From a virus, in the IMG/VR virus record IMGVR_UViG_3300033388_003934, positions 1-59,894 of that record: a DNA stretch of 59,894 bases. One strand, 5' to 3'. The notes below the pieces were generated by a model. That model had not been told where the DNA came from, ran no database searches, and was given only the letters and a program-made list of their open reading frames with translations. Every line of letters begins with the position of its first letter. The first letter of the stretch is position 1. The position numbers were made by a program, and so were the translations under genes. Positions 9,512-54,545 of this stretch are shown here, in pieces.

Positions 9512-10753
9512 ATGGCACTATTTACAGATAAAAGAGAATTAGCAAGACAGCCAGAGTATGTACCAATGGAAACTGCAACTGGTTTAAGAAAAGTTGGATT
9601 AGGAATTTTAGGCTATAATCCTCAAGGTGGTTTAAATACATGGGGTAAAATTCAAGAATATAATCCTTCGCCAGTACATGGATTAAGGAATTTAGGTGCT
9701 CAAGCTCTTTCAGAAAAAAATAAAGATTATGGAAAAGTAATTAGAGAAGGTGCTGGTGATGCATGGACTCAAGATTTAAATTCATTAGATTTTGCGTGGC
9801 AAGCATTTAAAATTTATTTAACTATGGGTGGTTCTGTAGGAGGTGGTGGTGCTTCAGCAACTGGTGGTGCAACATCTACACCGGCTACAGGTGCTCCAGT
9901 TACAAGTGGTGCAAGTGCGGCTCCTGCTGGAGCTGGTGCTCCAGTTCAAGGAATAGATGCTTCAAGTAGTGCTTTTAGTGGAATGGGTGGTGGTACAGAA
10001 ATAGCTTCTGGTCTTGGTACTGATATGGCTTCTACATCAGCTTCAATGGCGGCTGGTGTTCCATCATATGATGTTGCTTCATGGACAACTGGAACGGCTA
10101 TGGATGCATCGGGAAATATAGTCGATAAAAATATATTAGATGAAATTAATCAAGGAACATTTGATGAAATTTATGATACAGATGAAACTAAATTAATGGA
10201 TAGGTTTTTAGAATATATGGGTGCAGAAGAAGATGGTAAAACTGAAGGTATTACTCCATCTGGAGAAGAATATGATATTATTTCTCCTGATGTAATGGGA
10301 AGAAAAGGAAGTGGAACTGGAGAAGGAACGGGTGTAGATATAGATCCTGAAAGGCGTGGAAGTACATTTTTGGATAAATTAGACCCAAATCAAAAGAAAA
10401 TGTTAAATGAAAATCTTAATCAAGGTAAAAAAGAATTGTCACAAAAAGACAAAAAAGGAGCAGAAAGAGATTATGCAAATTGGAAAGCGGCTGCAGAAGC
10501 AAAAGGATTAAGAGTAATAGGAACTGATGCTGTTGATAATATGGGTCAAGTTCAAGCTACATATGTTGCAGAAGATGATTCAGCAGAAAATAAAAAGCGT
10601 TCTGGAGATGCACTTAAAAGTATGTTAAGTGGTAATATAGTTTCGTCTGGTGCTGCTATGATTAATACAGCAACATCAAATATTAATGATGCTGAAGATA
10701 GAATAAGAAAGTATCAAAATCAAGGTTCAATGACAACAAGTTATTTATTATAG
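9512..10753 (+). CDS. Gly/Ala/Ser-rich putative cargo (ejection) protein
   Basis: A 413-residue protein. The N-terminal 80 residues have an ordered look (KRELARQPEYVPMETATGLR). Residues about 105-190 are low-complexity Gly/Ala/Thr/Ser, the middle is acidic and the C-terminal 130 residues are helical. It is the first of five consecutive large genes between the muzzle and the fibres, the place where crAss-like phages encode proteins stored in the capsid and tail and delivered on infection. Start is 1 nt after the previous stop. Cargo role is inferred. Confidence 0.5.
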   Translation: MALFTDKRELARQPEYVPMETATGLRKVGLGILGYNPQGGLNTWGKIQEYNPSPVHGLRNLGAQALSEKNKDYGKVIREGAGDAWTQDLNSLDFAWQAFKIYLTMGGSVGGGGASATGGATSTPATGAPVTSGASAAPAGAGAPVQGIDASSSAFSGMGGGTEIASGLGTDMASTSASMAAGVPSYDVASWTTGTAMDASGNIVDKNILDEINQGTFDEIYDTDETKLMDRFLEYMGAEEDGKTEGITPSGEEYDIISPDVMGRKGSGTGEGTGVDIDPERRGSTFLDKLDPNQKKMLNENLNQGKKELSQKDKKGAERDYANWKAAAEAKGLRVIGTDAVDNMGQVQATYVAEDDSAENKKRSGDALKSMLSGNIVSSGAAMINTATSNINDAEDRIRKYQNQGSMTTSYLL

Positions 10754-10755
10754 TT

Positions 10756-13700
10756 ATGCCAAAAGAAAAAAGTAAATATGACGGTTTAAAAACTCAGTAT
10801 GGTTCTTATACTTCAGAAGCTGCTGCCGAATTAAATTATTTAGAAGGAGTTTATTATAGAACTCCGAGTCAAACTCGAAGAGCTGGTTATTTAAGAGGTT
10901 TAAAAGCTGATGCTGAAAAACAAGCTGCCGCTAATAAAGCTGCTGAAGAAGAAAAGCAAAATACTCAAAATGCTTTAAATACATATAAGTTTCGTCAAGA
11001 ATCTGAATTAGGAAGCTCTCAAAAAGAAAATCATTACGGGAAAAAACAAACTCCTGAAAAATTCTATGAAATATATTATCCAAAAGTTGCTAAAGCATTA
11101 GAAGGAACTAATGTATCTCCTGAATTAGCTATGGCACAATTAGCTATAGAAACTGGTTGGGGAAGAACTATTAATTCTGAAAATGGTTTTGCAGCAGTAT
11201 TTGGTAAAAAACATGGTTCAAAAGAAGATGGTAAATATGCTGAAATTCAAACAGTTGAAGATATATCTGAAGATAAAATACAAGAATATATAGATAAAAA
11301 TCGTGATAAACTTGTATTAACTGATACGCCAAATCAATATAATCAAAACTATAAAGTAGGAGATAAATATGTTGATTTAAATATGCACGAATATACTAAT
11401 AGACCAGGGGAACAATATAAAGAACCTAAACTAAGAGTTAAGATTCGAGATAATTTTAGTGCTTATGATTCATTTGAAGATGCTATAAAAGGATATGCAG
11501 AGCTTTTAACAACTAATGATAATTATAAAAATAATTTTTATGCTGCTGGAGATGGTTTAGATCCTATAGCACAAGCAAGAGGAATAGCTCCGAAATATGC
11601 AACAAGTGCTGGATATGCAGATGATTTAGTTTCAATAATAAATACAAGTAGAGAAAAAGGAAGATTAGCTGGTGGTAAAATGGCTGTTAGTGGTGCTAAA
11701 AATGAAGCTTTTATAGAAAGAAATCCTGATGGAACTGCTACATATTATACAAAGGCTGGTCCAGATGCATTGAAATTAAATGAAGATGGTGTATATGATT
11801 ATGGAAAATGGAATGACCCAAACAATAAATATTTTGGATATTATCAAGCTCCATTTACATTGCCAGATAACCATCAATTAATCAATGCAGGTGATTATCA
11901 ATATATTGTTTCGCCAGGAACTACAGATAATCCAAATGGTCAATTATTTAGAGTAGATGAAGCACAACAACAAGCAAAAAGTTGGAACTCATATAATACA
12001 AATTTTGATTTATCAAATAAAGTAGGTGTGTCTGATTTAACAAGTTGGGCATCTGGTTCAGATAAAGCAGGTTCTCCAGCGGCTGCATTATTAAGAGAAG
12101 CTAATGAATATGCTAATGAACATAATTTAGACAAAAAGGATGGTGATTGGTCACAAGAAGAATTTGACGGCATTAAAAAGTTTAGAAATCTTATGAATGT
12201 TTATAAATCAAATCCTCAATATAGAGATGATGATTTAGCTGAACAAGAATATGCATTTAATAAAAGGGTAATGGTTCCTTTTTATAAAAAACAATTAAAT
12301 GAAGTTGTTGATTGGTCACAACAAAGAGTAAATAATGTTGAAAATGAATTATTACAAGCTGTAGCAAATGATGCTCCAGATGATGTAATTGCAGAAATTA
12401 GAGGAAGAAGAGACCAAGTACAATATGATTATGAGCAAACAAAATTGGCTACTAATCAAATGATAAAAGGTATTGATGATGCTGTAGCACCTGAAAAAAG
12501 AACTCCAAGTAGTTATGGTGGCTTTGAAGAGATGGTAATGTCTTTTGAAAATTGGTTATCTCCTGGTGCTGTAGGAATACAATATAATGTTGATCAAGAA
12601 GGTAATAAATTAATAGGTACTTCTGATGAAGAAAAATCTGAATTTTTAGCAAATTTCGATGCAACATTAAAACCATTTTTTAATGCAGCTGTTGATAGAA
12701 ATAATGAAAGAATAGAAAATTGGAATGCTGCTCAAAATCAACCTCAAAACACAAGTGTAATAGACCCTAATAATCCATATCAAGGTCAAAATCCCAATAC
12801 AAATAATACTAATAGAACAAATACTGGAGTTAGTTATGGAACAAGTGGATATGGATATCAGCCAAAGATTAATGAAGCTAATTTTAATCCTAATATGGAT
12901 TATATTAATGATTTAGGTACAGTAGCAGAAGTAACTGATGATGGAGAAGTTGTAAGGAAAGAAAAAACACTTAAAGAGTTACAAAATGAAATGGCTGATG
13001 TTACAGCTTCATTAGAAACAGCAAGTACCCCTATTGAACAAGTGGGTGTTTATGCTCCTGATTTAGAATCTGATGATAATATTGGAGGATTTCTTGGAGA
13101 TGCTGGTAGAGCTTTAGTTGGTATTCGTGGTGCTACAGAGCAAGTTCCTGAATATCAAACTGGTAGTATGTATAATCTTGCTATGGATGAAATGACTGCT
13201 CGTAGAAATTTAGGTATGTCAGATGAGGAAATTGCTCAAATGAGAAATTTAGCTGAAAGAGGTTATGGATATGATGTTAAAAACATTAGAAGATTATCTG
13301 GTGGTAGTGCTGGTGTTGCATTAGGTAACTTAGGAAGAGCACAAAATCAATTATATGATCAATATACAAATATAGCTGCTGCAGACCAAAGAGTAAGACA
13401 AGCTAATAGAGCACAGTTTTATCAAGGTGCTATGACAGATGAAAATGTCAATAGACAAAAATTCCAAGATGAATTACAGCAAGTATTAATGAATAAACAA
13501 GCTGGTGCTGGTTTAGTTAATGATGCATTAAGTAATATAGATGATAGAATACAATTTAATAAATTCTATGGAAAAGGCTCACCATATTATGAAATGAAAA
13601 AATCTACATGGTTAAGTTCAGAACAAGAAAGAATCGATAAAGAAGAAGCATTAAAGAATAGTAGACAAAAACATATTGATGATTTAACAAAACAACAAAG

Positions 13701-15469: not shown

Positions 15470-17143
15470 ATGGCAGATTGGGGTTTATATTCAGCATTAA
15501 GAGGAAAGAACAATTGGCAACAAAAAAGAGCAGATGCCATGATGGATTTCCAAATGACTGAAGCTCTTAGAGCTAAAAGAGAAAGGGAAAACCAACAACG
15601 AATGCAAATGGAATCCAAATTTTTGGAATACCAAAATGCAGTTCAAAATTTAGATGTTTTAAAAGAAGATCAAGAAAGAATTAGAGGAGTAGAAAAACAA
15701 GCTCGACAAGATGTTGTTGCTGGTATTGCTAAATATGATGGTGATATTAAAAGATTTATGAGCAGTGGTGGTTTACAAACAATGAATGCATATCAACAAA
15801 AAGTAATGCAATCTGATGAATTAGCAAATGCTATTCGAAATAAACAGAACATGGCTCAATGGTTAGCTGATAGAGCTAAAGGTGATAGATTTATTAAAGG
15901 TGTTAAGGTAGAAAAAGAATTTACAGACCCAAAAACAGGTGAAAAAACAAAAAGAAATGTACAAACAACAATGGATGAACAAATGGCATTGTTTAAAGAA
16001 GGTAAATTAAATAACTTTCAGTATAATGGTTCTGAAAAGAAAGTTCAAATTAATCCAGCTTTATTTAAAAAATCTGTTAAAGATGCTACTAACCCATATA
16101 GTAAAGATAATTATGTTACTCAATCAAATGTATTTGATGCTGCATTAATGCAAGGTGCAAGTAATGAACAAGCTATGCAATTAGCACAAGATTATGGAAG
16201 AGCAGTTGAATCATCTGGAAGTCCTGAAAATGCATGGAGATGGGGAGCTGGTAATCCACTTGATGTTGAAAAATTAAAAATGCAAGCAAGTCAATTTGAT
16301 GAACAAATGGATTATAGATGGGCTTCATTAGAAAATCAAAAACAATGGCAAGCATATAAAGCTAAAGTAGGAGCTCAACAAGATAATAGAATAGGTTCGT
16401 TTGCTGAAACTACATATAGGAAATTATTACAAGGTGGAGATGGTGCAGTAAGTACAGACCAAATTGTTGCTAATGAAATTCCTAAAATAATGACTAATAA
16501 ATTTAAAGCATTTCCTTCAGGAAAGGATAATGTTTATAATGCACAATATATGTATAACGGTCCAATATTTACTGCTGATTCTAAAACGGTTGATGGAAGA
16601 ACAACAACTTCGATTGCTGGAAGTCAAATAGATGCTCAAGGATTGCCTATAACTATAGGTGACCCAAATAGTTATACATCTTTTGTAAATGTAACAGATG
16701 CAAATGGACAAGCTCAATTAATGATGCCTGTATTTGCTGCTGGTTCTCCTGATAATCCAGCATTTGCTCAAGCACAAGCAAACGGAAGTGTAGGAAATTG
16801 GAAAGTAAATGAAGATTATGTAGACCAAGTAACTCAAACTGCTGGAAGTTCATTTGTTGGTTTAATTCCTGTAACAGATATATTGGCTAATAGGTCAAAT
16901 ACTTTAGCAATAGATAAGTCTATAGGTATAGCTCCAGGTAAAATGGAATATGGTGGAGCTGCTGGAACAGCAAGTTATGAAGATGTAATGCAACAAAATC
17001 TTAATATGTTTGGTGGTGATATAAATGCTTATCAACAAATGGTAACTCAAAATTTAGGAACATATTATGGACCATCATCGCCTGGTGGTGCTACACAAAT
17101 GGGAATGGATCAATATTATCAATCAATGAATAGACAGCCTTAA
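15470..17143 (+). CDS. putative cargo protein, helical and Gln/Ala-rich
   Basis: A 557-residue protein beginning MADWGLYSALRGKNNWQQKRAD. The N-terminal 110 residues are strongly helical with many Glu, Arg and Gln, likely a coiled coil. The C-terminal half is Gly/Ala/Gln-rich with beta stretches. It lies between the murein hydrolase and the vRNAP gene and reads in the same direction with a 2-nt gap to the latter. Probably packaged and ejected with its neighbours; no recognisable domain. Confidence 0.5.
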   Translation: MADWGLYSALRGKNNWQQKRADAMMDFQMTEALRAKRERENQQRMQMESKFLEYQNAVQNLDVLKEDQERIRGVEKQARQDVVAGIAKYDGDIKRFMSSGGLQTMNAYQQKVMQSDELANAIRNKQNMAQWLADRAKGDRFIKGVKVEKEFTDPKTGEKTKRNVQTTMDEQMALFKEGKLNNFQYNGSEKKVQINPALFKKSVKDATNPYSKDNYVTQSNVFDAALMQGASNEQAMQLAQDYGRAVESSGSPENAWRWGAGNPLDVEKLKMQASQFDEQMDYRWASLENQKQWQAYKAKVGAQQDNRIGSFAETTYRKLLQGGDGAVSTDQIVANEIPKIMTNKFKAFPSGKDNVYNAQYMYNGPIFTADSKTVDGRTTTSIAGSQIDAQGLPITIGDPNSYTSFVNVTDANGQAQLMMPVFAAGSPDNPAFAQAQANGSVGNWKVNEDYVDQVTQTAGSSFVGLIPVTDILANRSNTLAIDKSIGIAPGKMEYGGAAGTASYEDVMQQNLNMFGGDINAYQQMVTQNLGTYYGPSSPGGATQMGMDQYYQSMNRQP

Positions 17144-17145
17144 TA

Positions 17146-20100
17146 ATGGGAGATTATGTAAAAAATAAAATGCAAGCATCTGGTGGGAATCCAGGTGGTA
17201 GAAGATATACTGATGATTTTCGTGATAGAACTCCACATCTTGTAGATGTAGAAGGAAATATCAATCTTGATAGAGAATTTTTAGAAGGTAGGTCTGATAT
17301 GGAACAACAAATGACTTCTATGGGGTTTGATGTTGGAAGATTAGATTTAGCTGAGGCTGACTATGCAGATATGTATAGAGATTGGAATAAGTTAGACGCT
17401 ATGGAAGTGCCTGATTTTTATGACCCTTTTGAAGCAGAATCATATGAATTTGAAAGATGGGCTATCACAGATTTAGCAGCTGGACTATGGAATAGAGGTG
17501 TAGCTGGAATGGTTAGTGGTGTTGCACAAGCTCCAGCATTACTTGGTGCTGCAATAACTGGTTCAGAAGAAGGAGATTTTTGGGACACTTGGATTGATGG
17601 TGTTAATGAAATGGAAGAGGGAATGTCTATTCAGGCAAGTGATAAAGCTTTAAAACCTATGACTGATGGTTTTAATGCTAATAACTTTGCATATGCGTTT
17701 GGTGATGGTTTAGGATTTATGGCTGATATATTTTTAGGTAGCAAAGGTGCTGGTGCATTATTAAAAGCCGGTTCAGCTGCGTCTAAAATACAAAGAACTC
17801 AAAGATTAGGTACTTTCATAACAGGTACTATGCAAATGCAAAAAGACCTTTATAAAGAAGGAATTGCTGCGGGATTGTCGCCAGGTAATGCTGCCAGAGT
17901 AGCAATACCTACTGCAATGGTAGTTTCTGCATCAGAAGGTGCTGCATTAGAAATGTTAGGAATGACAATAAGTGGACAAATGTTAAGAGGTGCATCAAGG
18001 TCTGCTTTAAGAGCTGAATTAAAAGCTTTAGGTAAAGCTGGGGGAGAATTAAATTTAGCAAACTTTAAAAAATTAGTTCCAAGTACTGCAAGAAGTGTTG
18101 GACAAAAAATGAAAGATTTTGGAACAGGTTTTGTAAAAGGTTATCCTGTAGAAGCAACACAAGAATTTGTACAAACATATATAGAAGATTTAGGAAAACA
18201 TGCATATGATACATGGTTTGCTGGAAAAGATGCAGTAAAAGGAGCAGGGAAATTTGGTGTAGATTGGAAAGAAACATTTGAAAAAGCTGTTGTTAGTGGT
18301 ATAGTTGGTGGAATGGTTGGTGGAACTATTGGTGGTGGAGGATCAGCTATAAGAGGAATAGAAGGAAATACTACATTTACTTATGTTAAAGATGCTATAG
18401 ATAATAATAAACCTGGTAAAGTAAAAAGGCTTATTAATAAAGTTAATAGAATGGGTTCTACGGGAGCGATAAAAAATGCTCCAGAAGTAATTCAAGCTAT
18501 TAAAGACATGACAAGATATTCACAATCTATTAAAGGTCTTAATATAGATTCAAGTACAGCGAATTTTCAATTATTCCAATTGAATCAAATACAAGATGAA
18601 TTTCAAACAAAATTTGGAAAAGAATTTAAAACAGATGCTAAAACAAATTATTTAATAGCTAATGCTTATAGGATTAATGAGGAAAAAGCTACTATGCTTA
18701 CTCAAGCTATGAATAATGAAATGCAAGTTCTTATTCAAGACAAAAAGCCATTAACTAAAGATTTAAATAAGTTTGAAAGAAAACTATCTAATTATCAAAA
18801 CTTATTTCATAAAATACAAAAAGGTAAAATTAATAAAGAAGAATTAGTTAGTGAGATTAGAAAAAATGAATCACCTGTAGTTACTAAATGGAGACAGCAG
18901 ATAGAAGCTGAAATGGAAGCTATTAAGCAATCACAATTAGATAATGATGGGGTTTCTATTAATCAAGAATTAGATAATTTAGATGATGCAAAGGCAGCTA
19001 AAAAAGCAGAAGGGAAACAATTTGCATATACAGAACTTCCAGGAAATAAAAAAGCATCTAAAGAAGCTATAAATGATTTTGAAAAATTAGTTGCTGAAAA
19101 GGAAAAAGTAAATCAATTAGCTGATACAGATGTTAATGCTGTTGAAAAATTTGCTACAAAATTAGAGCAACAATATGGAATGTCTATACAAGATTTAACT
19201 GCTCTTGAAGAAAATTGGTCTATTGGAGAAGAAATTGGTAAGAAATCTAAAGAAGGTAAATTAAAATATAAAGAACCAACAAAAACCAAAGCAAAGCAAG
19301 AAACTACTGATAAGCCTTTAACTGAAGATGAAAAAAGGATAGAAGCATTTGCTCAAAATTTTGCAGAATCAACAACTGATGAAAACAATAGAAGGTTTGC
19401 TAAAGATGCTAAAGAAGATGAAGCTTTTTATGAAGCTAATAAAGAAGCTATTGAAAAAAGGACATCTGAAATTAAGGCAGAAAAAATGGCTGATGATATG
19501 CTTGTTATGGGTGACGAATTTAAAGCATGGAAGCCAGGTACTAAAGAAGAAAAATTTTATAATGAAAATAAAGAGCTTGTAGATAAAAAATTAGAAGAAT
19601 TAAAAGCTGAAAAAAAGAAGCCTGAAACTAAGGAAAAAGAAACTAAGAAGAAAGAAGTTAAAGAAGAAGCTCCTAAAAATAAATTACAAGAATTATCAGA
19701 TTCAATTGATAATAATAAAAATTTAAATGAAAGAGATTTAAATGCATATCAAGATGAATTACAAAAATTAGCAGATGAAGGTGTTGGCACTGTAGAAGAA
19801 AGGGCAGAATTAAATGATAAAATAGCTAAAAATAGAGAGCAACTTAAATCATTAACAGAAGAACAAATTATAGAAGAAGCACCTACAGAAGCTAAAAAAG
19901 AAGAGTCTAAAGAAGAAGTTAAAGAAGATTTAACTGAAGAAATGGTTCCTGAAGGAGTTGATGAAGAAACTCTTTTAGAAGAAAGAGAAAAAGCTAAAAA
20001 AGATGTAGAATATAGTAAACTTTTAAATGAAGAAAATACTATAACAAATAAATTAAAAAAGGTAGGATTAACGGGTAAAGAAAGAGATGGATTGCGTAAA

Positions 20101-23100
20101 AGATTAAAAGAAATTCAAAAAGAAAAAAAAGAAATTGAAGATACTGATAAAGGGCAAGAACAAGAATATGTTGCACCAAGTAAAGAAGAAGAAAAAAATT
20201 CTCAAGATGCATTTGAAAAAAGAAGGCAAAGAAGAAATAGAATTAAAAAGGATCAAAGAAAAAATATAGAAAAAGATAATTTAGAAAGAAATTTAATTCA
20301 AAATAATCCTCAATTATTTAATAAAATATTAAATCATTTCAAAAAATTATTTCCTAATGTGCCTGTAGTAGATATTAATGTTGATACAGCATTTCAAAAT
20401 ACATTATTACATGAAGGTGCTCATATTATCAAAGATATTTTAGGAGATAATCATCCATTAATAAAAGCTGGTATGCAATTTATTAAGGGAACTCAATATT
20501 TTAAAAATGCTCAAATATTATATCCAGAATTAACTGTTGAAGAACAAGCTGAGGAAGCTTTAATGGAAGCTATTGCTGACAATTCTTTAGAAAAATTAAA
20601 AACTAAGTTAGAAGGTACTAATCTACAAAAGTTTGTTGCGTGGTTAAAAAGGTTTTGGAATGCTGCTAAAAAGGCTATAGGACTTAAAAAAGGAAAGCAA
20701 TCAGTTGATATGTTGGCAGATATGTTAGCTTATTCAAAAACTCCTTACAATGCAAATCTTGGTTTATTGCCGAGCTTTAAACAACAAAGATCTATACAAC
20801 ATTTAAAAACGATAAATGAAGTTCAAGTAACTGCTGCATTATCACGAATGGATTACATGCTTGGTGAAAGTAAATTCAATCCAAATGAAGGATTTAATTT
20901 GCAGACTATGGTATATGAAGATTTAGCTGATTTATTGGTGCTTGAACAAGAAATACCAGAATCTAATTCTATTTTTGATGGTTTATCATCTGAATCTGTT
21001 AAAAGTATTTTAGAAGCTAAAACACAAGCTAAAAAAGCACAAAAATTAATGTGGGCTCTTAAAACAGAGTCTAAGGAATTGTGGAATATAATAGAAACTT
21101 CTACAAGGCAATTATCTAAAAAAACATTACCAGTATTAGATGATGTAGAAAATTTAATAAAAGTTTCTTTAAAAAGAGATGATAATGTTTCTAATTCAGT
21201 AAGGTCTATAGTAACTGCATTAGTAGATAATAATGGTTTCTTATATGACTCTAATTTAGTTTATCAACAAATTGCTAAAATTGCTGATGTTTCTGTAGAC
21301 ATTAATTCTTTTGAAAAAACATTAAAAGATTTAGCTGATAACGGAAATGATATAGCTCATAAATTAAATCTAATATTAGATAGTTTTGAAGATAGCACTA
21401 AAAGAGGAATATTATCAGAATTAGCTTCATTAACAACAATAGAATATAGGTCATTAATTAAAAACACTACTGTTCAAGACGGAAAGAAAAAAGTTTCTGT
21501 TCTTTGGAAAAGAGTTAACAAAGATAGAACTGTTGAAGATCAAATAAATGAAATGAGTAATCATTGGAAAAATGCTGATTTACAACAAATAAAAAGTCTT
21601 TTAAATGAAACTATAAATCAAGAAAAAATTGGTCAATTAAAATATTGGAAAGCTGGTTTAAAAAATAATTGGTTTAGATATTCAAAAAATATATTTGAAC
21701 AATTATTTGGAATAAAATTATCAGAAAAAGAATATTTAGATTTCTTAAATAATTATGTAAAATCTGCTGTTGCAACAAAAGACTTATCAAAACAACAAGT
21801 AGAAAGAAGAAGGTTAAAAGGATTAATAGGGTTTAGAGCAAAAGGAAAATCATACGGTAGATTAACTGAAGCTTTTGATCAAATTGAAAGAGAAGGTAAA
21901 TTAGATAAAAAACAAATTTCTGGTGTATTAAGACAGCTTGCGTTAGCTAAACAAGGTGATGCTCTTGCTACTAATTTTGTAAATCAGGCTGGAAATAATG
22001 TTACTGCAACAAGATTAGGATATTGGGTAAATCAATTTAATAAATTATTTACTTATGATAAAGGTTTTAGAGGTGATATAAATAAATCAAATTTATATAA
22101 AGATAATCCTATAATTAATTATTGGAATAAATCTAAAGATAAGCCAGAATGGTTTATACATGATGCGTTTGAAAATGTTGGTTATAGTGGAGCTATTGAA
22201 CATTCATATGCTGAAGTAAATGATATTATACTCAATAACTTCTTTTATTTTTCTCAAAATAAAGGGATTAAAGATGCTTATTTTCAATCAATAGGTGTTA
22301 CTGGTGATAGAGGTCATTTAACTTATTTTAAAGTACCTAAATTTAAAGGAGATAGGCTTAAACAAGAATATAAGAAAAGAGCATTATTAGATGAACAGTT
22401 AATTAACAATAGAGTAAAAAATACTGGTAAGTCTTTAAATGAGGTTGTTATTCAATTTAATAAAACTTCTTTAAATGAAGCAGTTATTGAAAATGGAAAG
22501 GTTGTTGTTAAAACTCCATATGAAGGAAATAAATTTAGTAAGAAAATAAACCAAGAAGTAGATAAAATATATGGTTTATTAGAAAAAACTGATACAATAG
22601 AATCTGTACAATCAGCTAATCCTGATGTTGATGTTAAAAGTATAATTGGAGAATATATATACAATGAAAGCTTAAATCGTTCATATTTAACTGATATATA
22701 TGCCGGGCCTGCTATTTATAAAAAATCTGTTGCTGATGTAATGAAGCGTATGGCTGGATTAAATTCAGGAGGTAAATTAATAAACATAGATAAGCCTGTT
22801 CATGTATTTGTTATAGACACTAAAAAAATGTCTGATTCTTTTTCTTTTAATGGTTCTCATTTTGCGAAAAGGTTAACAGATATGAGTGGAGATACAGATG
22901 TTGTGGGTGTGAATGTAAAAGATATGTTATATGAAATCGGTCCAGAAGGAGATTTAGATTTTTATAAAATGTCTACATTAAATGTTACTGGAGATGTAGA
23001 TGCTAATTCATTAACAGAATTTGCTGATCAAAATGATTTAGCTAATCCTACTGGATATAATGCAATAGGAAATGCAATATTAGAAATTGAAAAAGCTTTA

Positions 23101-46883: not shown

Positions 46884-47132
46884 TTATTTATACTTTTTTT
46901 GGTGTTTTCTTTTTCTTAAATTTATATTCTTGCCCTCTTTGAGCATTTTATTCTTATACCTTTTTAATAGTTTTATTTTGAAATACCCTTTAAGGTTTAT
47001 TTCTTCATTGTTCTGTAAGGCATTACGAAATCCATCAAAGAAATGGAAAACCACAATGTGAACAACAGCTTTATCAATTCCTAATTTCTTAGAAATCTCT
47101 GTTATAATTTTCGAATGCTTGTAATTTTTCAT
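46884..47132 (-). CDS. HU/IHF-like DNA-bending protein
   Basis: 82 residues. KIITEISKKLGIDKAVVHIV, FFDGFRNALQNNEEINLKGY and FKIKLLKRYK match the HU/IHF pattern (helix pair, then the INL-x-G-(Y/F)-F-x-I strand). The C-terminus is very basic. It lacks the usual NPxTG arm, so DNA bending may be altered. Starts 44 nt inside the dnaB gene in another frame. crAss-like phages often carry IHF-like proteins. Confidence 0.7.
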   Translation of the reverse strand: MKNYKHSKIITEISKKLGIDKAVVHIVVFHFFDGFRNALQNNEEINLKGYFKIKLLKRYKNKMLKEGKNINLRKRKHQKKYK

Positions 47133-48486
47133 TTTCTAAAAATTCAATTTCGGATGCAAACTTTGCAAATTGACTTATATACTTAAGGTTTTCATTTCCA
47201 ATACCGGTTGATCTTCCTTTAGCAATAATTATTTCAACATTTTCTATTTCAGGTATTCTTTCTTCAATTTCATAATAAGCTGCTCTATAAACAAACATTA
47301 CCATATCAGCATCTTGCTCAATGGCTCCTGATTCTCTTAAATCAGATAATATTGGTCTTTTGTTAGCTCTTTGTGTTACAGCTCTTGAGATTTGAGATAT
47401 AGCTATAATAACAATTTTTAATTCTCTGCATAACTGCTTGAATGTTCTTGATATTTTTGCTATTTCTTGCTCTCTTGTTCCGTTTCGTTTTGTGTTTGGA
47501 ATAGTAACTAATTGAAGATAATCTACTATAAAAAATTTACAGTTGTTTTTGATATTTAATTTTCTGATTTTATTACATATATGATTTAAATCTCCAGATT
47601 TATCATCAATAAAATAATTTTCATTTTCAAAATATTTAGCAGAATCATAAAAATCATTCCAATCTTTTTCTTTTAATTGCTTTTTTCTGATTTTACCTAA
47701 ATGTATGCATCCATAAGATGCTATCATTCTTGTAAGTAATTGCTCTTTAGACATTTCTAAAGAAAAAATAGCTACAGGTAAGTTTCTAATAATATGATTT
47801 TTAGCAATTTCTAATGCAAATGCAGTTTTACCCATTGATGGAGCTCCAGCAACTATTATTAAGTCTGAAAGTTCCCAACCATATATAAAATTATCTATTT
47901 CCTGAATAAATGTTTTAATATAATTCTTACCATCTTTATCAGACATATTATCTATTACGCCTTGTAAAGTTTTAATAGGGTTATATTCTTCAACATCTGC
48001 ATATTCTTGTAATTCAACAATTTTATCGGTTATTTTAGAGATAATTTCATCTGGATTAACCATATCATTTGAATCTTCGTTAATCTGATTTGCAAGATTT
48101 AGCAATTCTCTTCTTTGAGAATATGCCATTAATAATTTAATATGTGTTTTAATATGTGCATCAGTTGATACTCTGTCTGCAATTTCATTAATATAATCAA
48201 TTAATGTAGCTCCTGTTTTTTCTATAATTCTTGTATTATAACCTTTTGTATTTACTCTATCAGTAACAGTTATAATATCAATTTTTGAATCTTCTGCACA
48301 TTCTTGAATTGCTGTAAAAACATATCTTGAAGCTTCTGTAGAAAATCCTTTTATATTTACCTGGTCTGCAAATTCATAATATCTGTCAGGGTAATTAATA
48401 AAAGTACCTAATACAATTTCTTCTAAATCGTGGTTACTTTGTCCAAAAAATGTACCTTCTTGTAAAAATGTTAATTGGTCGTTCAT
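47089..48486 (-). CDS. dnaB: DnaB-type replicative helicase
   Basis: 465 residues. N-terminal helical domain (about 15-150), linker, then RecA-like helicase domain: Walker A G214-APSMGKT221, SLEMSKEQLLTRM (motif H1a), FFIVDYLQLVTIPN (Walker B), QISRAVTQRANKRPILSDLR and ESGAIEQDADMVMFVYR. All hallmark DnaB motifs are present and the length is standard. Unwinds the phage fork ahead of a polymerase and primase not in this window. Confidence 0.95.
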   Translation of the reverse strand: MNDQLTFLQEGTFFGQSNHDLEEIVLGTFINYPDRYYEFADQVNIKGFSTEASRYVFTAIQECAEDSKIDIITVTDRVNTKGYNTRIIEKTGATLIDYINEIADRVSTDAHIKTHIKLLMAYSQRRELLNLANQINEDSNDMVNPDEIISKITDKIVELQEYADVEEYNPIKTLQGVIDNMSDKDGKNYIKTFIQEIDNFIYGWELSDLIIVAGAPSMGKTAFALEIAKNHIIRNLPVAIFSLEMSKEQLLTRMIASYGCIHLGKIRKKQLKEKDWNDFYDSAKYFENENYFIDDKSGDLNHICNKIRKLNIKNNCKFFIVDYLQLVTIPNTKRNGTREQEIAKISRTFKQLCRELKIVIIAISQISRAVTQRANKRPILSDLRESGAIEQDADMVMFVYRAAYYEIEERIPEIENVEIIIAKGRSTGIGNENLKYISQFAKFASEIEFLENEKLQAFENYNRDF

Positions 48487-48532: not shown

Positions 48533-48964
48533 TTAGAAATTTTTAAAGATTTTTTCCATTATATTATCTGTAAAAAATCCTTGATCTTCTGCATCTTCTG
48601 AAGTTGGCAACATATTATACAGTTCTTTAACTTCAATATACTTATCTTTTAATATAGCTTCATAACAAGATAAGTGCAATGCTTTAATAGGAAATTTATT
48701 GTCAAAATATTCAGTTATTGCTTGACTTCTTTCAATATCTATATTTTTAGGAGAATCTTTATATATTTCATTTATAATATCAGTATCTCCATTATATTTT
48801 GCTAAAATATAAATATCTTTCCCATTTATCTCTCCATACCCATTATATGATTTGTCTATAAATACATTGTTAGGTGTAACTAAGACTATTCCATCATTAT
48901 ATTGAGTATGAGCATTTTTGATACTCTCTTTACAATGAGAGCAATTCCAGCTAAAAAATCCCAT
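48533..48964 (-). CDS. conserved phage protein beginning GFFSW-x-C-x-x-C
   Basis: 143 residues. MGFFSWNCSHCKESIKNAHT opens with a short motif and a Cys pair common to a family of uncharacterised phage and plasmid proteins. The remainder is alpha/beta (DGIVLVTPNNVFIDKS). Start overlaps the DUF932 stop by one base (TAATG), so the two are co-translated. Function unknown. Confidence 0.6.
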   Translation of the reverse strand: MGFFSWNCSHCKESIKNAHTQYNDGIVLVTPNNVFIDKSYNGYGEINGKDIYILAKYNGDTDIINEIYKDSPKNIDIERSQAITEYFDNKFPIKALHLSCYEAILKDKYIEVKELYNMLPTSEDAEDQGFFTDNIMEKIFKNF

Positions 48965-50070
48965 TATATTGTAACTAATAGTTTACCTGCGATATCTTCA
49001 ATATCTCTTTTTCTTCTTGTATTACCTGATTGAACACCTACTTGAGTCATTGCTTGAGTTAGTTTCCAAATAGTATTTCTACCTTGAACACCATGTTCTG
49101 GGTTGTTATCAGAAAGTATATCAGTTAAAGATTTAACTTCATCTTTTCTCATACCCATTTTAGGAAGTTTTTTGATTTCAGTATCAATATTTACTAATCT
49201 GGATCCTGCTCTTTCAATATTTGAAACTTCGTGTAATAGAAATTCAGTATCAAAAGCACTATTAACAATATCTCTTACTAAAGAAGCTTGTGTTTCAGTA
49301 TCTAATTTATAAGTTTCATTACTTAAAATTAAATTATCAGGTAATTTTTTACCTAAATGAACTTGTCTAATAAGATTATCTCTTGTCATTCCATTTAAAC
49401 AAACTACTTGCATAGAATATGATTGTACTCTTAAAGCTCCATCTCCATAATCAGAGTTAGAAATTCTAAGTCCAAATACCATATATGTTACACCATTATA
49501 CTGTGTGTGTACAGGTACAACTTCTGGTAAAATAAATTCTATGTAAGTTCTTGTTTCATCATAACAGCAATCCATTAATTGTGCACCTTGATTCACACAA
49601 GCATTAAAAAATTCAGCATATATTTCAGCTGTATTTAATCTTCTATACTTGTCTGATAATACACCTTTAACTTGATTATCAAGAGTTCTTATAAGAAATC
49701 TTTTAGGTTCATGATTAATGGTATGTTCATTTAACATTTGAGTAGCTAAATCTCTTTCCCATTGATTTGTACCAGTAGCTAAAGATTTTAGATAGGTTGT
49801 TGGTATTCCTAATTTATCTCCTAATTGACCTACAGCATGTCTATGAATTTTTTGATAGTTTCCATCAATATTCATTTGCACAGATCCATTAGCGTAAAAT
49901 AAATTATAGTTTGTCATACCACCAATTGGCATAATCAAATCTTCAATACCGTTACTTTCTTCTTGAATTTTTCTAATAGTTGGCATTTTATCAGATGCAT
50001 CACTTAATACTCTGGTAATTTTTTCTTGCAGAATACTCTGCTCAGTTGGATTAATTGTTTGTATTTCCAT
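48964..50070 (-). CDS. DUF932 family phage/plasmid protein
   Basis: 368 residues. GQLGDKLGIPTTYLKSLA, PKRFLIRTLDNQVKGVLSDK, YRRLNTAEIYAEF, GLRISNSDYGDGALRVQ and VCLNGMT are the recurring blocks of DUF932 (phage/plasmid-like TIGR03299 group), found on mobile elements and near PRTRC genes. Activity is not established. It directly follows the ThiF gene after a hairpin, so it may be part of the same functional cluster. Confidence 0.8.
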   Translation of the reverse strand: MEIQTINPTEQSILQEKITRVLSDASDKMPTIRKIQEESNGIEDLIMPIGGMTNYNLFYANGSVQMNIDGNYQKIHRHAVGQLGDKLGIPTTYLKSLATGTNQWERDLATQMLNEHTINHEPKRFLIRTLDNQVKGVLSDKYRRLNTAEIYAEFFNACVNQGAQLMDCCYDETRTYIEFILPEVVPVHTQYNGVTYMVFGLRISNSDYGDGALRVQSYSMQVVCLNGMTRDNLIRQVHLGKKLPDNLILSNETYKLDTETQASLVRDIVNSAFDTEFLLHEVSNIERAGSRLVNIDTEIKKLPKMGMRKDEVKSLTDILSDNNPEHGVQGRNTIWKLTQAMTQVGVQSGNTRRKRDIEDIAGKLLVTI

Positions 50071-50089
50071 AATATATTATTAAAACAAA

Positions 50090-50108
50090 GAGCACCAAAG
50101 AGGTGCCC
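50090..50108 (-). terminator. intergenic hairpin with U-rich tail
   Basis: A 7-bp stem (GGGCACC with GGTGCTC) with loop TCTTT, followed on the - strand by TTTGTTTTAAT. Between thiF-like and DUF932 genes. Looks like an intrinsic terminator or attenuator. Confidence 0.7.
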
Positions 50109-50113
50109 TTGCT

Positions 50114-50878
50114 TTAAAGTTTGATAGGATTTACAGCCATTGTATCTAAATTCATAAAAACACCATGTTGAGCGGTTCTATAATTTCTAAATAACTTCCA
50201 TAATAAATTCATACCAAATTCTGCTAATGTTGAATTAACTAATAAATCTTGTTTATTTAAAGCTTCTAAAGTACTACAGCTTGGAGTATCTTCATTTTCT
50301 TTTAATTTACCAATAGTTTTTTCCATTTCTATTATAGTAGGCATTGTAGGGTTATTAGCACCTTCAGGTTGGTTTATATGACCCATAGTTCCTAAAATTG
50401 CTTGTCCAAAATTATCTCCATTTCCAAAATCTAACCAATAATGGCAAGTATTATATGGACTTCTTGTTCTCAAATAGCATTTAGCTTTTTGAATGTCTTT
50501 TCTAATTTGAACATTATCTACACATGTTATTATAATATTAAATGGTATGCTTGGGTTATCAAAATCAATTTCAAACTTTCCTGGAATACTATCCCAATTA
50601 GTACTATAAAATCTGTTAATTCTTTCTATTGTTACATCTGCTTTAAATCTGTCTAAATCTGTTTCAGAGAATAATTGTCTACCAATATTTGCTCTTGAAA
50701 CTTTATCAGGATCATAGCATCTAACAAAAAATCCTGGGTGACCTAAGCCAATTAATCCAGCATTCATTCTTCCTAAAATAGCTAACACTGAACTACCAGT
50801 ACCTCCAGCTCCTATAACTGCTATAGTTACTTTATGTACTGGTGCTATCAATGTTTGCTCCATATAATGATATTTCAT
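50114..50878 (-). CDS. PRTRC ThiF-family protein (E1-like adenylating enzyme)
   Basis: 254 residues. Rossmann ATP-binding G23-AGGTGS29, D56-PDKVSRANIGRQ68 (matching the E1 D-x-D-x-V-x-x-x-N-x-x-RQ motif) and TCVDN (119-122). TPSCST places a conserved cysteine at C201, the likely thioester-forming residue. These are all parts of an E1 that adenylates a Ubl C-terminus. It overlaps the E2-like PRTRC B gene by 4 nt, and the Ubl-like PRTRC C is in the same operon. Expected to activate PRTRC C; substrate not shown. Confidence 0.85.
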   Translation of the reverse strand: MKYHYMEQTLIAPVHKVTIAVIGAGGTGSSVLAILGRMNAGLIGLGHPGFFVRCYDPDKVSRANIGRQLFSETDLDRFKADVTIERINRFYSTNWDSIPGKFEIDFDNPSIPFNIIITCVDNVQIRKDIQKAKCYLRTRSPYNTCHYWLDFGNGDNFGQAILGTMGHINQPEGANNPTMPTIIEMEKTIGKLKENEDTPSCSTLEALNKQDLLVNSTLAEFGMNLLWKLFRNYRTAQHGVFMNLDTMAVNPIKL

Positions 50879-51555
50879 ATTATATCTTTTAGCTTTTTTT
50901 TACGATAATTTGTTAAGTTTTTAGAATCTCCAAAACCATTTTTATCCCAAATAACATTAATATTGTTTTTGAAATTCTGATGGTTTAAATGTGTAAATTT
51001 TGATCTAAAAAATAGTTGTTCTATATGTTGTATCAATTTTTCTAAATTGCATATATTCCAATCTATACTTGCATTTCCCATACATACTTTACCATCATTA
51101 TATATATTATGAAATGGTGCATAAAAAAGATTAGTTTCTAATCCTTTAAAACATTTATAGGCATATACAGATAGCTTAGTATCTTTTATTTTAAATATTA
51201 AATTAGGTACACATTTAAATTCCTTAGAAATATTATGTTTTTCATCAAAATTCAAATTAATATGACTCTTTTTAAAAGTCCATATTAAATTTAATTCTTG
51301 ATTATTTGTATTAAAATAAATAACATTCTTAGGTATTAATCCTTTAAATTCATATTTACTTTTATCTAAACCTTCTATTTCTTTTAACAGTTTTCCTAAA
51401 ATTTTGATTCGTGCTGGTTTACCAGGTCCAAATGTAAATTTGTTTTCTTGTAATTCTCTAATTGCGTGTTCTTCTATATAAGTGTTAACTGTTTTTTCAG
51501 TTTTATACACAACTAAACTCATTACGGGTTTCATATACTCGGGAATTTCATTCAT
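50875..51555 (-). CDS. PRTRC system protein B (E2-like)
   Basis: 226 residues. FGPGKPARIKILGKLLKEIE and YAPFHNIYNDGKVCMGNASI match PRTRC B / prokaryotic E2 group D. C158 in KVCMG is the predicted acceptor cysteine, with the preceding P-F-x-N-x-Y loop typical of the family. Lies between the unknown 341-residue gene (8-nt overlap) and ThiF (4-nt overlap). Expected to take the activated Ubl from the ThiF protein. Target specificity is unknown. Confidence 0.8.
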   Translation of the reverse strand: MNEIPEYMKPVMSLVVYKTEKTVNTYIEEHAIRELQENKFTFGPGKPARIKILGKLLKEIEGLDKSKYEFKGLIPKNVIYFNTNNQELNLIWTFKKSHINLNFDEKHNISKEFKCVPNLIFKIKDTKLSVYAYKCFKGLETNLFYAPFHNIYNDGKVCMGNASIDWNICNLEKLIQHIEQLFFRSKFTHLNHQNFKNNINVIWDKNGFGDSKNLTNYRKKKLKDII

Positions 51556-52573
51556 ATATTAAATACATACTTGCTAACCAATTTCTATAATTTTCAGGAA
51601 ATTCATCCTTTTTGTTTTTATTAAAAGGATTTTTAGCTGTTATTTGACATTCTTTATAAAATGGTAATATATCATAGTTTTGATAGTAATGATTTGCTTG
51701 TTCTTCATATCTATTAAAGACAACATCAGCTTCATCTACATTCCATAATAAATTAGCATAATATTCTGGTCCAAACCAAAAATCATCATCTTCATTAACG
51801 ATAGTTTTATAAGGTATATAATTATTAAAATCTTCTGTAATAATTTCAAACCCTTCTTCTATCCAAGCTAATATTTTCTGATCTTTATAGTTGTTAATTT
51901 TTATTTTACTGAGCATTTCTCTTAAAGATTTCTCAGTATGATTAGATTTTTGAAAATTAATTTTTTGCTCTAAAGGCATTACGGTTTTTTTATAAAATTT
52001 AATCGTTTCAAAAGCTTTTTTAATTTCATCTTTATCTAAATCTTCTACCCAGTCATTAATATAATCTTCACATATATCTACAATATAATCCATACCATGT
52101 AGAAAAGGAATATGAAAATGTTGTACTAAATAGGAGAAATACTCCCAAATGAAATTTTGCCAATCTTTTTTAAGACCCATAATCCAATATAATTCACTAC
52201 AAAATCCATTGTAATTTGTAGTGTTATCTTCAGCTGTCCATAATTCATAATCTCCATCATCATTTTTAGAAATTTTCCAGATATCTAAATCTTTTGTTAT
52301 TTCTTTTAATAGATAATGATTGAAATCATATATATTCATATTAGGCACATCATCTTTGATATAGTGTTTACCTATAGGATATAAAAAATTAAGTAACTTA
52401 GTAGGTTCCTCTTTAAAGATTAATTCAGATTTAGCTTTTAATATAGGGGTTTTAAGAGTGAAGAAGGAGTTTTCATTCTTTCTTCCATAATGACATTTAC
52501 TTTGTCTTTTTCTTCTTGCAAAATAATTATTGCGATACTGTGCCTCTGTTGAGGATAACATTTCTTTTTGCAT
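51548..52573 (-). CDS. unassigned protein inside the PRTRC operon
   Basis: 341 residues, rich in aromatic residues (WNVDEADVVFNRYEEQANHY, DFWFGPEYYANLLW) and with a Lys/Arg-rich start (NYFARRKRQSKCHYGRKNEN). No JAB/JAMM motif (E, then H-x-H-x(7-8)-S-x-x-D) is visible; QHFHIPFLHGMD has the histidines but no serine at the right spacing. It overlaps PRTRC B by 8 nt. Possible substrate, adaptor or phage-specific replacement of another PRTRC component. Function unknown. Confidence 0.55.
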   Translation of the reverse strand: MQKEMLSSTEAQYRNNYFARRKRQSKCHYGRKNENSFFTLKTPILKAKSELIFKEEPTKLLNFLYPIGKHYIKDDVPNMNIYDFNHYLLKEITKDLDIWKISKNDDGDYELWTAEDNTTNYNGFCSELYWIMGLKKDWQNFIWEYFSYLVQHFHIPFLHGMDYIVDICEDYINDWVEDLDKDEIKKAFETIKFYKKTVMPLEQKINFQKSNHTEKSLREMLSKIKINNYKDQKILAWIEEGFEIITEDFNNYIPYKTIVNEDDDFWFGPEYYANLLWNVDEADVVFNRYEEQANHYYQNYDILPFYKECQITAKNPFNKNKKDEFPENYRNWLASMYLIYE

Positions 52574-52612
52574 TTAGTCAGTTTTTTAAATAAATCTGTA
52601 TGTTTCATAATC

Positions 52613-52637
52613 AGGGAACAACAAAGCGTTGCTCCCT
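52613..52637 (-). terminator. intergenic hairpin
   Basis: A 10-bp stem (AGGGAGCAAC with GTTGTTCCCT, one G-U) and loop GCTTT on the - strand, upstream of the 341-residue gene. Splits the PRTRC cassette into two transcriptional segments, E-C-plus-small and unknown-B-ThiF. Confidence 0.65.
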
Positions 52638-52642
52638 AATTA

Positions 52643-52870
52643 TTACTTCTTTGCAAAAAGATATTTCTTTAAATTTATGTCTTTACACATAGTAGTTTTA
52701 GTTGATAATTTTACTTTTTCACAACATAAATAACTTGTGTTCTTTCCGTAATTATCTGATACATAAGTGTCAAAATCGAATCTTGCAAATTCTGCATATC
52801 TTGCAAATTCTATAGATTCTATAACAACACTTGCAGTAGCATATTCAAATATGATAATGTATTGTATCAT
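52643..52870 (-). CDS. small protein of the PRTRC operon
   Basis: 75 residues. MIQYIIIFEYATASVVIESI then a region with a CC pair (LCCEKVKL) and a Lys-rich end. Overlaps the upstream 56-residue ORF by 4 nt. Similar small alpha/beta proteins sit in mobile-element operons, but I cannot name it. Confidence 0.5.
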   Translation of the reverse strand: MIQYIIIFEYATASVVIESIEFARYAEFARFDFDTYVSDNYGKNTSYLCCEKVKLSTKTTMCKDINLKKYLFAKK

Positions 52871-53037
52871 TTTTTCTTATTTAGATATTTTTTGAAATAT
52901 TCAAGATTAAAATTTGCACAAGTTTTTTTCAAGTGCATACAAATAGTATGAGATACATCTGCAAATGTTTCTGGAGATGTATGTTTCTTGACCTCTAATA
53001 GAGAGTCTGCTACGATAATGAAATCTTTTCTTGTCAT
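52867..53037 (-). CDS. small ORF between PRTRC C and the 75-residue gene
   Basis: 56 residues: MTRKDFIIVADSLLEVKKHT, then FADVSHTICMHLKKTCANF and a Lys-rich end. Overlaps PRTRC C by one base (TAATG type) and the next gene by 4 nt (ATGA), strong signs of translation. The MTRKDF-x-x-x-A-x-x-L start is common among small phage proteins of unknown function. Confidence 0.55.
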   Translation of the reverse strand: MTRKDFIIVADSLLEVKKHTSPETFADVSHTICMHLKKTCANFNLEYFKKYLNKKK

Positions 53038-53240
53038 TAGCCTTTTGTTCCTACATTATTTTTAAAAGTATAAACACATTTTTCATTTTCAATTTTTGGA
53101 CCTTCTACAGTAGCTGTAGTTAATTCCGGAAATTGACCTGAATAAAAATCTAAAACTTCATTGACAGTCATATCTTGCGAAGGATCTGCCAGTTCAGTTT
53201 TATTGAGTAAAAAGATTCTTTCAATTTTAGTTGCTTTCAT
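53037..53240 (-). CDS. PRTRC system protein C (ubiquitin-like)
   Basis: 67 residues, the usual size. ELADPSQDMTVNEVLDFYSG and FPELTTATVEGP (37-48) plus a final VGTKG are the diagnostic blocks of PRTRC C, a prokaryotic ubiquitin-like family. The chain ends in a free Gly, so it would need no processing before adenylation by the ThiF protein. It lies directly after PRTRC E (one-base overlap) and upstream of the E2- and E1-like genes. Conjugation is inferred from family and neighbours. Confidence 0.9.
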   Translation of the reverse strand: MKATKIERIFLLNKTELADPSQDMTVNEVLDFYSGQFPELTTATVEGPKIENEKCVYTFKNNVGTKG

Positions 53241-54073
53241 TAGTATGTAAATGTTGATTGTGAACTATTAAATCTATTATCTCTTTCTTGTCTTATCATT
53301 TCTTCTTGTTCATCAGAAATTGGTTGAATATCATTGCCTACAGAATTATTTTCTTGAATAGGTGGAGTTTTATATTCTTCAATATTAGCTTCATCTACTC
53401 TTGCTTCAAATTCTTTATCTTGCCTATGCATTTCTTCATCTACATTTTCCATTTCTTTTTGAAACTTTGGTGTTCCATCAGGATAAGTAGATTGAACTGG
53501 TTCAGCTTTTGGTACATTAGGTAATGGTTGTATTTCTTCAACAACAGGTTCTTTAGGTGCTTCAACTTGACTAAACATATCTGGTTGAGAGTTATTTGCA
53601 TCACATTCTTTAACAAGTTGTGTAGCTTTACTAAACTTAGGATCATCTTTAAGAATTTGATTACAGATAAATTTACATTTATCATATTCTTTTTCATCCC
53701 AATATTTTTGAGCTTTCTCAAGTTGTTTAATTGAATGTTCTCTAACTTTCTTTTGCTTATCTTTTTCTGCTTTAGCAATTTCAGATTCTTCTTTAGCTTT
53801 TTCAACAGCTTTTTCGTGCTCATGCATATTTCTTAATAATCCACTTGATTTTTCTAAAGGAGTTTTTAGAAGCTGAAAAAATTGAGCATCAAATTCATCT
53901 ACAGTTCCAGTAAATAATATTGGTTGTAAATAATCTTTTGCATTGTCTTTGACTTTCTTTAATGGATTAACAGATACACATAATTCAGTTTCATTATTCT
54001 TTCGAATAGTAACATTAAGTGTTTCTGATACCAATAATAAGTCATTAATTTGTTTAAAAAAGGTTGTATTCAT
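53240..54073 (-). CDS. PRTRC system protein E
   Basis: 277 residues. The first 110 residues (FFKQINDLLLVSETLNVTIR, LQPILFTGTVDEFDAQFF, SGLLRNMHEHEKAVE) match PRTRC E. Then a Lys/Glu coiled coil (about 105-145), a TPR-like stretch (YWDEKEYDKCKFICNQIL), and a long disordered acidic Pro/Gln tail that is an expected site of protein contacts. First gene of the cassette, preceded by a 13-bp hairpin. Biochemical role unknown; possibly the Ubl target or scaffold. Confidence 0.85.
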   Translation of the reverse strand: MNTTFFKQINDLLLVSETLNVTIRKNNETELCVSVNPLKKVKDNAKDYLQPILFTGTVDEFDAQFFQLLKTPLEKSSGLLRNMHEHEKAVEKAKEESEIAKAEKDKQKKVREHSIKQLEKAQKYWDEKEYDKCKFICNQILKDDPKFSKATQLVKECDANNSQPDMFSQVEAPKEPVVEEIQPLPNVPKAEPVQSTYPDGTPKFQKEMENVDEEMHRQDKEFEARVDEANIEEYKTPPIQENNSVGNDIQPISDEQEEMIRQERDNRFNSSQSTFTY

Positions 54074-54089
54074 ATATATATATTTTTAA

Positions 54090-54121
54090 AACTTAACCCA
54101 CAACAAAGTGTGAGTTAAGTT
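54090..54121 (-). terminator. intergenic hairpin upstream of PRTRC E
   Basis: A 13-bp stem (AACTTAACTCACA with TGTGGGTTAAGTT, one T-G pair) and loop CTTTGT, then TTTAAAAATATATATATG on the - strand. Lies directly ahead of the PRTRC operon and may end upstream transcription or mark the operon 5' end. Confidence 0.7.
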
Positions 54122-54137
54122 GTATGCGTGCATACTT

Positions 54138-54545
54138 TTAATCAAATAGATTTCTATTCAAATTATTTCTTTGTTTAGTTAAAGCAGATGCTACAGAAAA
54201 TATAGCTTTTGCTCTTTTTTCTAAAGACTCTATGTACCTGTTAATATCTTCGACATTATTAGTTACATAATATCCTTTAGAACTACTTACTAAACAACTA
54301 ACTTTATCATATAATCTAATATGATTTATAATCTTCCTTATACGAGCTCCATTAACATCTTTATAATTAGATTTTAATTTTCTACACATTTCAGCATTGG
54401 TAATAGCATTACTTTTACCTATTCTTCTTTGTAGTCCTCTAATCATTGCAGGCATTAATATATTTTTCTCATAATCATTTAAGGGTGCTGTATGATCTTC
54501 AAATCCTGGTATCATTTCTTCTCCATTTTTCAATATCATCAACAT
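54138..54545 (-). CDS. putative winged-helix/HTH phage protein
   Basis: 135 residues. IPGFEDHTAPLNDYEKNILM and GKSNAITNAEMCRKLKSNYK, DVNGARIRKIINHIRL then SSSKGYYVTNNVEDI form a helix-turn-helix plus wing pattern found in small proteins of many Bacteroidota phages. An in-frame ATG at 54515 (MIPGF) preceded by GGAGAAGAA is an alternative start and reduces overlap with the upstream gene to 17 nt. DNA binding inferred. Confidence 0.55.
   Translation of the reverse strand: MLMILKNGEEMIPGFEDHTAPLNDYEKNILMPAMIRGLQRRIGKSNAITNAEMCRKLKSNYKDVNGARIRKIINHIRLYDKVSCLVSSSKGYYVTNNVEDINRYIESLEKRAKAIFSVASALTKQRNNLNRNLFD

Follow-up and report, generated by a model that had tools for sequence, protein, structure and literature searches.

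What does a PRTRC gene cassette, so far a named but functionless set of genes, do for a crAss-like phage? The question is raised by the IMG/VR virus record IMGVR_UViG_3300033388_003934, whose whole length of 59,894 bases is here called the window, and whose minus strand carries, between positions 50114 and 54073, a block in the order PRTRC E, PRTRC C, two small open reading frames (ORFs), an F-like gene, PRTRC B and PRTRC ThiF (Table 1). Our answer, held with about as much doubt as conviction, is that this is an early, active ubiquitin-like (Ubl) conjugation operon without PRTRC A, the most likely targets of which lie in the replisome. crAss-like phages are among the commonest gut viruses and, if conjugation is true, they encode a Ubl modification pathway of their own. 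The cassette is now seen intact near the dnaB gene, beside sliding clamp genes in other viruses, and in a culturable phage, BgVeeders33, and it offers a route to the function of PRTRC. New here are its standing as a conserved early module in a Crassvirales lineage, its linkage to clamp and helicase genes, and a rule that connects the C-terminal tail of PRTRC C with the presence of PRTRC A.

The family assignments were made by NCBIfam and Pfam profile searches of the window proteins, and four of these match PRTRC E, C, B (Prok-E2_D) and ThiF, as a first-pass annotation had proposed from the DNA sequence. PRTRC E, the first gene of the cassette in the relatives, scores 60.4 bits against TIGR03741 (cut-off 37.95) and 109.7 bits against PF19556 (cut-off 26), and PRTRC C scores 76 bits against TIGR03738 (cut-off 45.95) and 88 bits against PF14454 (cut-off 25), in agreement with the Ubl character and glycine end predicted for it. 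PRTRC B exceeds the threshold of PF14460 (79.9 bits vs 25) and matches TIGR03737 (PRTRC_B) over 184 residues with an E-value of 4.7e-26 and 91.5 bits, which is below the cut-off of 131; on the Tunicatimonas PRTRC plasmid, too, B is annotated as hypothetical. ThiF contains a GAGGTG site, D56, N64, R67, K79, D121 and Cys 201 (in PSCS), and its profile matches the E1 structures UBA6, UBA1, UBA3 and Cap2. Genes E and C overlap by 1 nucleotide, the F-like gene and B by 8, and B and ThiF by 4, and the window matches the order E-C-F-B-(A)-ThiF of the plasmid, integrative element, phage and fetched loci.

The 341 amino acid gene at the F position and the two small ORFs belong to the cassette; the 75 amino acid ORF is conserved only in the nearest relatives. 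An iterative profile seeded with same-position proteins of Bacteroidota plasmids and integrative elements gathered 111 F-position family members, the 341 amino acid protein of the window among them. This protein matches no database family, including PRTRC F (TIGR03742), its AlphaFold model (pLDDT 81) found no PDB match in a fold search, and its sole match among viral structures is an uncharacterised phage protein, A0A6J5L345 (1.6e-8). A weak profile match between the C-terminal part of its family and proteobacterial PRTRC F suggests that the two are kin.

The first-pass annotation went too far in calling the set full. PRTRC A (TIGR03735, a JAMM peptidase) was not found in the window or in records L002 and L192, and was detected in the positive control, BgVeeders33; a profile search for Prok-JAB found none in the window record or its relatives. 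PRTRC D and PRTRC ParB had no match in the window, L002 or L192, nor in BgVeeders33. The cassette is the A-less form of PRTRC, as on Bacteroidota plasmids and integrative elements, and with no JAB/JAMM peptidase in the record the cassette itself cannot remove its tag.

The window record belongs to Crassvirales. It encodes proteins that match ring protein 1 (crAss001 gp43, 7.8e-7) and the ring-protein family phrog_9863 (1.1e-24), and its stabilisation protein matches those of cr106_1 and other named Crassvirales; the genes for the major capsid protein (MCP) and terminase were not found in the window fragment. The cassette is encoded on the early strand, with DUF932-like, DnaB, Sak4, NinB-like and ExoVIII genes downstream of it, which bears out its original placement in a crAss-like early region, and it would probably be expressed early, together with the replication genes.

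The identical block in identical order is present in independent contigs recovered with ThiF as query (ThiF 85–87% identical), and a survey of the crAss-like relatives finds PRTRC shortly before DnaB in 16 of the 17 fetched DnaB-clade contigs with 3 kb or more of sequence upstream of that gene, a set that includes some near-copies of one another. One contig, L186, is the exception: it stops 3.3 kb upstream of DnaB, and no PRTRC was found in it; it may have lost the cassette, or the cassette may simply be cut off by the contig end (the gap between ThiF and DnaB in L190 is 3.4 kb). Two contigs of this clade, L192 and L194 (about 70 kb), each encode a Crassvirales ring protein (about 1e-27) together with a protein that matches the cr106_1 capsid protein. 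Among Crassvirales relatives ThiF identity falls to 29–43%, whereas DnaB keeps 41–50% over the same span; diverged loci with 31–43% ThiF identity still have the same E1 Cys, E2 Cys and terminal Gly. A common origin of the Crassvirales ThiFs is not rejected by the tree (approximately unbiased test, p 0.80), a result that is no proof since the group was chosen after the trees were seen, and three further records with crAss ring proteins (L065, L074 and L094) have PRTRC of other branches. We note that in L003, a close relative of the window, a Mom-family gene (8710–9336; PF25680, 4.6e-28) is inserted between cassette genes F and B.

Conservation of the predicted active sites extends well outside this lineage. 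The ThiF GxGGxG motif, D56, N64, R67, K79, D121 and C201, together with C158 of B, are kept in about 170 loci, and the loci scored as lacking ThiF or B catalytic residues are mostly truncated or misaligned. All 167 aligned B proteins have the equivalent of Cys 158, and the terminal Gly of PRTRC C is conserved. The two cysteines singled out at first, E2-like C158 and E1-like C201, are thus conserved wherever they can be aligned, and no loss of either, or of the terminal Gly, was seen in the relatives.

The end of PRTRC C varies with PRTRC A. Where A is missing (131 cassettes), C terminates without exception on its final Gly (129) or Ala (2); in 23 of 25 cassettes with A it extends beyond GTKG, by at least 37 residues in 20 of them (counted by profile ends). 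PRTRC A is a Prok-JAB protein with a complete JAMM motif (E...HSHx7Sx2D). On the tree, A presence and C tail change 6 and 5 times, respectively, and in the same direction in every contrast where both differ; there are 6 such contrasts on the best tree, only 2 of them well supported, and the count is not a p-value. Since the tail is found only with A, and the JAMM motif of A is intact, A looks like a maturing peptidase of C, in keeping with what Iyer, Burroughs and Aravind (PMC1779556) proposed in general for paired JAB and Ubl proteins. This suggests a concrete and testable role for A. The phage form, in which C ends at its last Gly, needs no such peptidase, and A is not universal, since it is missing from nearly all Bacteroidota PRTRC loci.

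PRTRC is not confined to crAss-like viruses. A broad profile search of IMG/VR returned 196 ThiF stretches, nearly all of the 80 IMG/VR loci fetched have the order E-C-(F)-B-ThiF, several viral-only ThiF clades are supported on the tree, and terminase is also present in 22 of 49 PRTRC-bearing records tested. The cultured, Mu-like Burkholderia phage BgVeeders33 (OK665841, L009) contains a complete E-C-F-B-A-ThiF cassette at 16222–20708, its genes annotated mostly as hypothetical or dinucleotide-utilizing; this phage is the handiest system for experiments. No report of PRTRC in phages, crAss-like or other, was found in the open-access papers searched, subscription papers and preprints being outside this search. 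Two side observations come from the same survey. Near its cassette, L053 encodes a protein (9821–11911) that fuses Amidoligase_2, phage DAM-like and GNAT-like domains, with similar proteins in 10 viral loci. In Salmonella phage Arash (L010, 1519–4539) Prok-E2_D-like, JAB and ThiF genes appear to lie side by side (B profile 7.7e-7, JAB 1.4e-7, ThiF 7.8e-15), annotated as "structural protein" or hypothetical.

The replication genes near these cassettes are our main guide to a target. A phage gene for the beta clamp of DNA polymerase III (DnaN, PF00712) lies within 1 kb of the cassette in 20 of 77 viral loci, in most of them immediately before E and in the same orientation, and DnaB is near the cassette in 17 viral loci. 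Among 80 genome loci a DnaN-adjacent cassette occurs once, on an element that also appears as viral contig L043. Conversely, a DnaN query returned six loci, all six with the cassette. In a divergent fecal phage contig (L011, MT835919) JAB, ThiF and DnaN genes stand in a row, with a Prok-E2_D-like gene 3.6 kb farther on (1–2761 and 6385–7137).

If the cassette acts as its sequence predicts, ThiF would adenylate the ready-made C-terminal Gly of C, C would pass by way of Cys201 of ThiF to Cys158 of B, and B would attach it to the target at a lysine or another nucleophile, E and the F-like protein perhaps serving as scaffold or substrate adaptors. The most likely targets would be phage or host replication and recombination proteins (DnaB, the sliding clamp and their partners), by analogy with the modification of PCNA; that the target is in the replisome is a guess from the neighbours. 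The DnaB, sliding clamp and Sak4 neighbours point to DNA replication rather than to a tail or capsid role, and the earlier idea that the phage tags virion proteins has no finding that points specifically to it. A wider proposal, that the crAss-like lineage and several other Bacteroidota phages modify a replisome component (clamp or DnaB) in a viral parallel of PCNA ubiquitination and SUMOylation, with PRTRC A as the Ubl-maturing peptidase of the other branch, seems to us doubtful in its entirety.

Several points weigh against replisome conjugation. There is no DnaN near the cassette in the window itself, and with the profiles used here 12 of the 22 terminase-bearing PRTRC records have no DnaN, DnaB or Ssb within 5 kb. 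Phage early regions bring replication genes together in any case, and adjacency alone names no substrate. The AlphaFold model of B (pLDDT 91.5) finds no PDB E2 by fold search, and the B profile has no E2 match among PDB sequences; the order of elements in the model (helix, strands, Cys loop, helix) fits an E2, and it is the Pfam match and the invariant Cys that argue for one. The profile of PRTRC C likewise had no match among PDB sequences.

The same chemistry could instead serve counter-defence, by conjugation of C to a host immune protein or by competition with host Ubl systems (type II CBASS Cap2/Cap3, Bil and Bub). Early expression from the early-region position would fit such a role, the Mom-family gene inside the L003 cassette is a DNA-modification gene, and PRTRC is common to plasmids, integrative elements and phages, all of which face host defence. 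Yet almost every member of the DnaB clade has the cassette, where typical counter-defence genes are patchy, and counter-defence leaves the clamp and helicase adjacency unexplained. That the E1, E2 and tag residues are conserved speaks against a pure decoy, and none of the findings specifically indicates the blocking of Bil or CBASS that was first suggested; genes specific to Bil or type II CBASS (E1-E2 fusion, JAB, sensor and effector) were not found in the window, which gives weak PADLOC E1-domain matches alone. We regard counter-defence as unlikely, though a serious contender.

PRTRC might also act in partition or copy-number control, and a phage might use it for an episomal carrier state. 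PRTRC ParB adjoins plasmid cassettes, ParB_N-like genes are near 10 viral cassettes, and crAss-like phages probably persist alongside their hosts, all of which favour such a maintenance role; the absence of PRTRC ParB and the actin-like PRTRC D noted above, which holds also for BgVeeders33, makes it quite improbable. Very improbable, in our view, is a sulfur-carrier or peptide-modifying chemistry, in which C is ThiS/MoaD-like and receives from ThiF a thiocarboxylate that serves to modify a small molecule or base instead of being conjugated to proteins: the ThiF family does take in ThiF, MoeB and MccB, but a Prok-E2_D partner with an invariant Cys is nearly always present, the best structural matches are ubiquitin E1s, and we noted no gene for sulfur transfer in the vicinity of the cassette. 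Last, IMG/VR can hold non-viral elements, and some of its matches (L055, L063) have the same or almost the same sequence as chromosomal elements, but that the cassette is a decaying import, or entered a virus contig through misassembly of plasmid or integrative-element DNA, is extremely improbable with all catalytic residues intact, and plasmid contamination is argued against by the several independent contigs with phage neighbours and by the crAss capsid and ring proteins on the 70-kb contigs L192 and L194.

Returning to the conjugation operon, the layout of the block offers a hint of how its products might be balanced, since the hairpin inside it (Table 1) could allow C to be made in excess over the enzymes.

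Table 1. Features of the PRTRC cassette, its flanks and clamp genes in other loci (window positions unless a locus is named; aa, amino acids)
Feature	Coordinates	Strand	Evidence and remarks
Hairpin before E, 3' of upstream gene 54138-54545	54074..54137	-	-19.1 kcal/mol, z -5.1
PRTRC E, 277 aa	53240..54073	-	PF19556 1.7e-31; TIGR03741 1.4e-16; N-terminal domain conserved, C-terminal half of low complexity
PRTRC C, 67 aa, Ubl tag	53037..53240	-	PF14454 Prok_Ub 2.9e-25; TIGR03738 1.8e-21; ends GTKG, without C-terminal extension
Small ORF, 56 aa	52867..53037	-	ATG overlaps stop of PRTRC C (TAATG); read from sequence
Small ORF, 75 aa	52643..52870	-	Without family match; orthologues in L002, L003, L181
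Very stable hairpin between C part and F-B-ThiF part	52574..52642	-	Fold -21.9 kcal/mol, z -6.5 vs shuffles
341-aa gene at PRTRC F position	51548..52573	-	Joined by iterative profile to 111 F-position proteins (Bacteroidota family)
PRTRC B, 226 aa, Prok-E2_D, predicted catalytic Cys 158	50875..51555	-	PF14460 2.5e-22
PRTRC ThiF, 254 aa, E1-like	50114..50878	-	TIGR03736 7.1e-70, 235 bits vs cut-off 144.75
Intrinsic-terminator-like hairpin directly 3' of ThiF, operon end	50071..50113	-	z -4.2
DUF932-like protein, next gene downstream of ThiF	48964..50070	-	phrog_1362 1.3e-56; PF06067 0.027 (weak DUF932 match)
DnaB-type replicative helicase	47089..48486	-	PF03796 1.3e-84; partner in conserved synteny PRTRC-DnaB-Sak4
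Clamp beside PRTRC E, examples	L033 2911-4002; L027 6285-7364; L024 6293-7441		

Among known systems, the E1 domain of type II CBASS (Cap2/Cap3), Bil and other bacterial Ubl systems is detectably related to that of the window (through the Cap2 structures and weak matches to E1-E2 PADLOC models), but the window has separate E1, E2 and Ubl genes, an E2 of family D, no JAB, and no sensor or effector. The cultured Steigviridae crAss001, PhiCrAssBcn18 and DAC15 likewise have a ThiF gene in the crAss early region, beside a JAB-like gene; their ThiF is only 25–33% similar to that of the window, JAB is present there, and PRTRC C and B were not detected in them by profile. In PhiCrAssBcn18 (L269, 4299–9454) and DAC15 (L270, 4477–9403) the JAB-like and ThiF genes are annotated "metalloprotease" and "thiamine biosynthesis protein", and a nearby Steigviridae protein of 225–246 amino acids has an N-terminal part that is Ubl-like by eye, ending KKIKSG, and a long tail. 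The Steigviridae JAB-ThiF region may amount to another, divergent Ubl system of crAss phages. We also note a second Ubl-type set (multiubiquitin, ThiF and DUF6527) beside PRTRC on the Tunicatimonas pelagia plasmid (L015, 15059–17259).

BgVeeders33 resembles the window phage in that its cassette is phage-borne; it differs in having the A-containing type, a host on the proteobacterial side and an unrelated phage lineage. The PRTRC of proteobacterial plasmids (for example Rhodoferax NC_007901, ParB-E-C-F-B-A-ThiF) has homologous E, C, B and ThiF genes in the same order, but these plasmids have A (JAMM), mostly a C that is tailed past GTKG, PRTRC F and often ParB, whereas the window phage is without A, ParB and D. 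The closest counterpart is the PRTRC of Bacteroidota plasmids and integrative elements (for example Parabacteroides distasonis NZ_OY725769, E-C-hypothetical-B-ThiF), which has the same genes in the same order, no A, and a C that ends at Gly. Its ThiF is about 42% identical to that of the window and its F-position protein about 16%, and whereas the neighbours in the Bacteroidota elements are topoisomerase, Ssb and DUF932 genes, those in the window are the phage DnaB and Sak4 genes.

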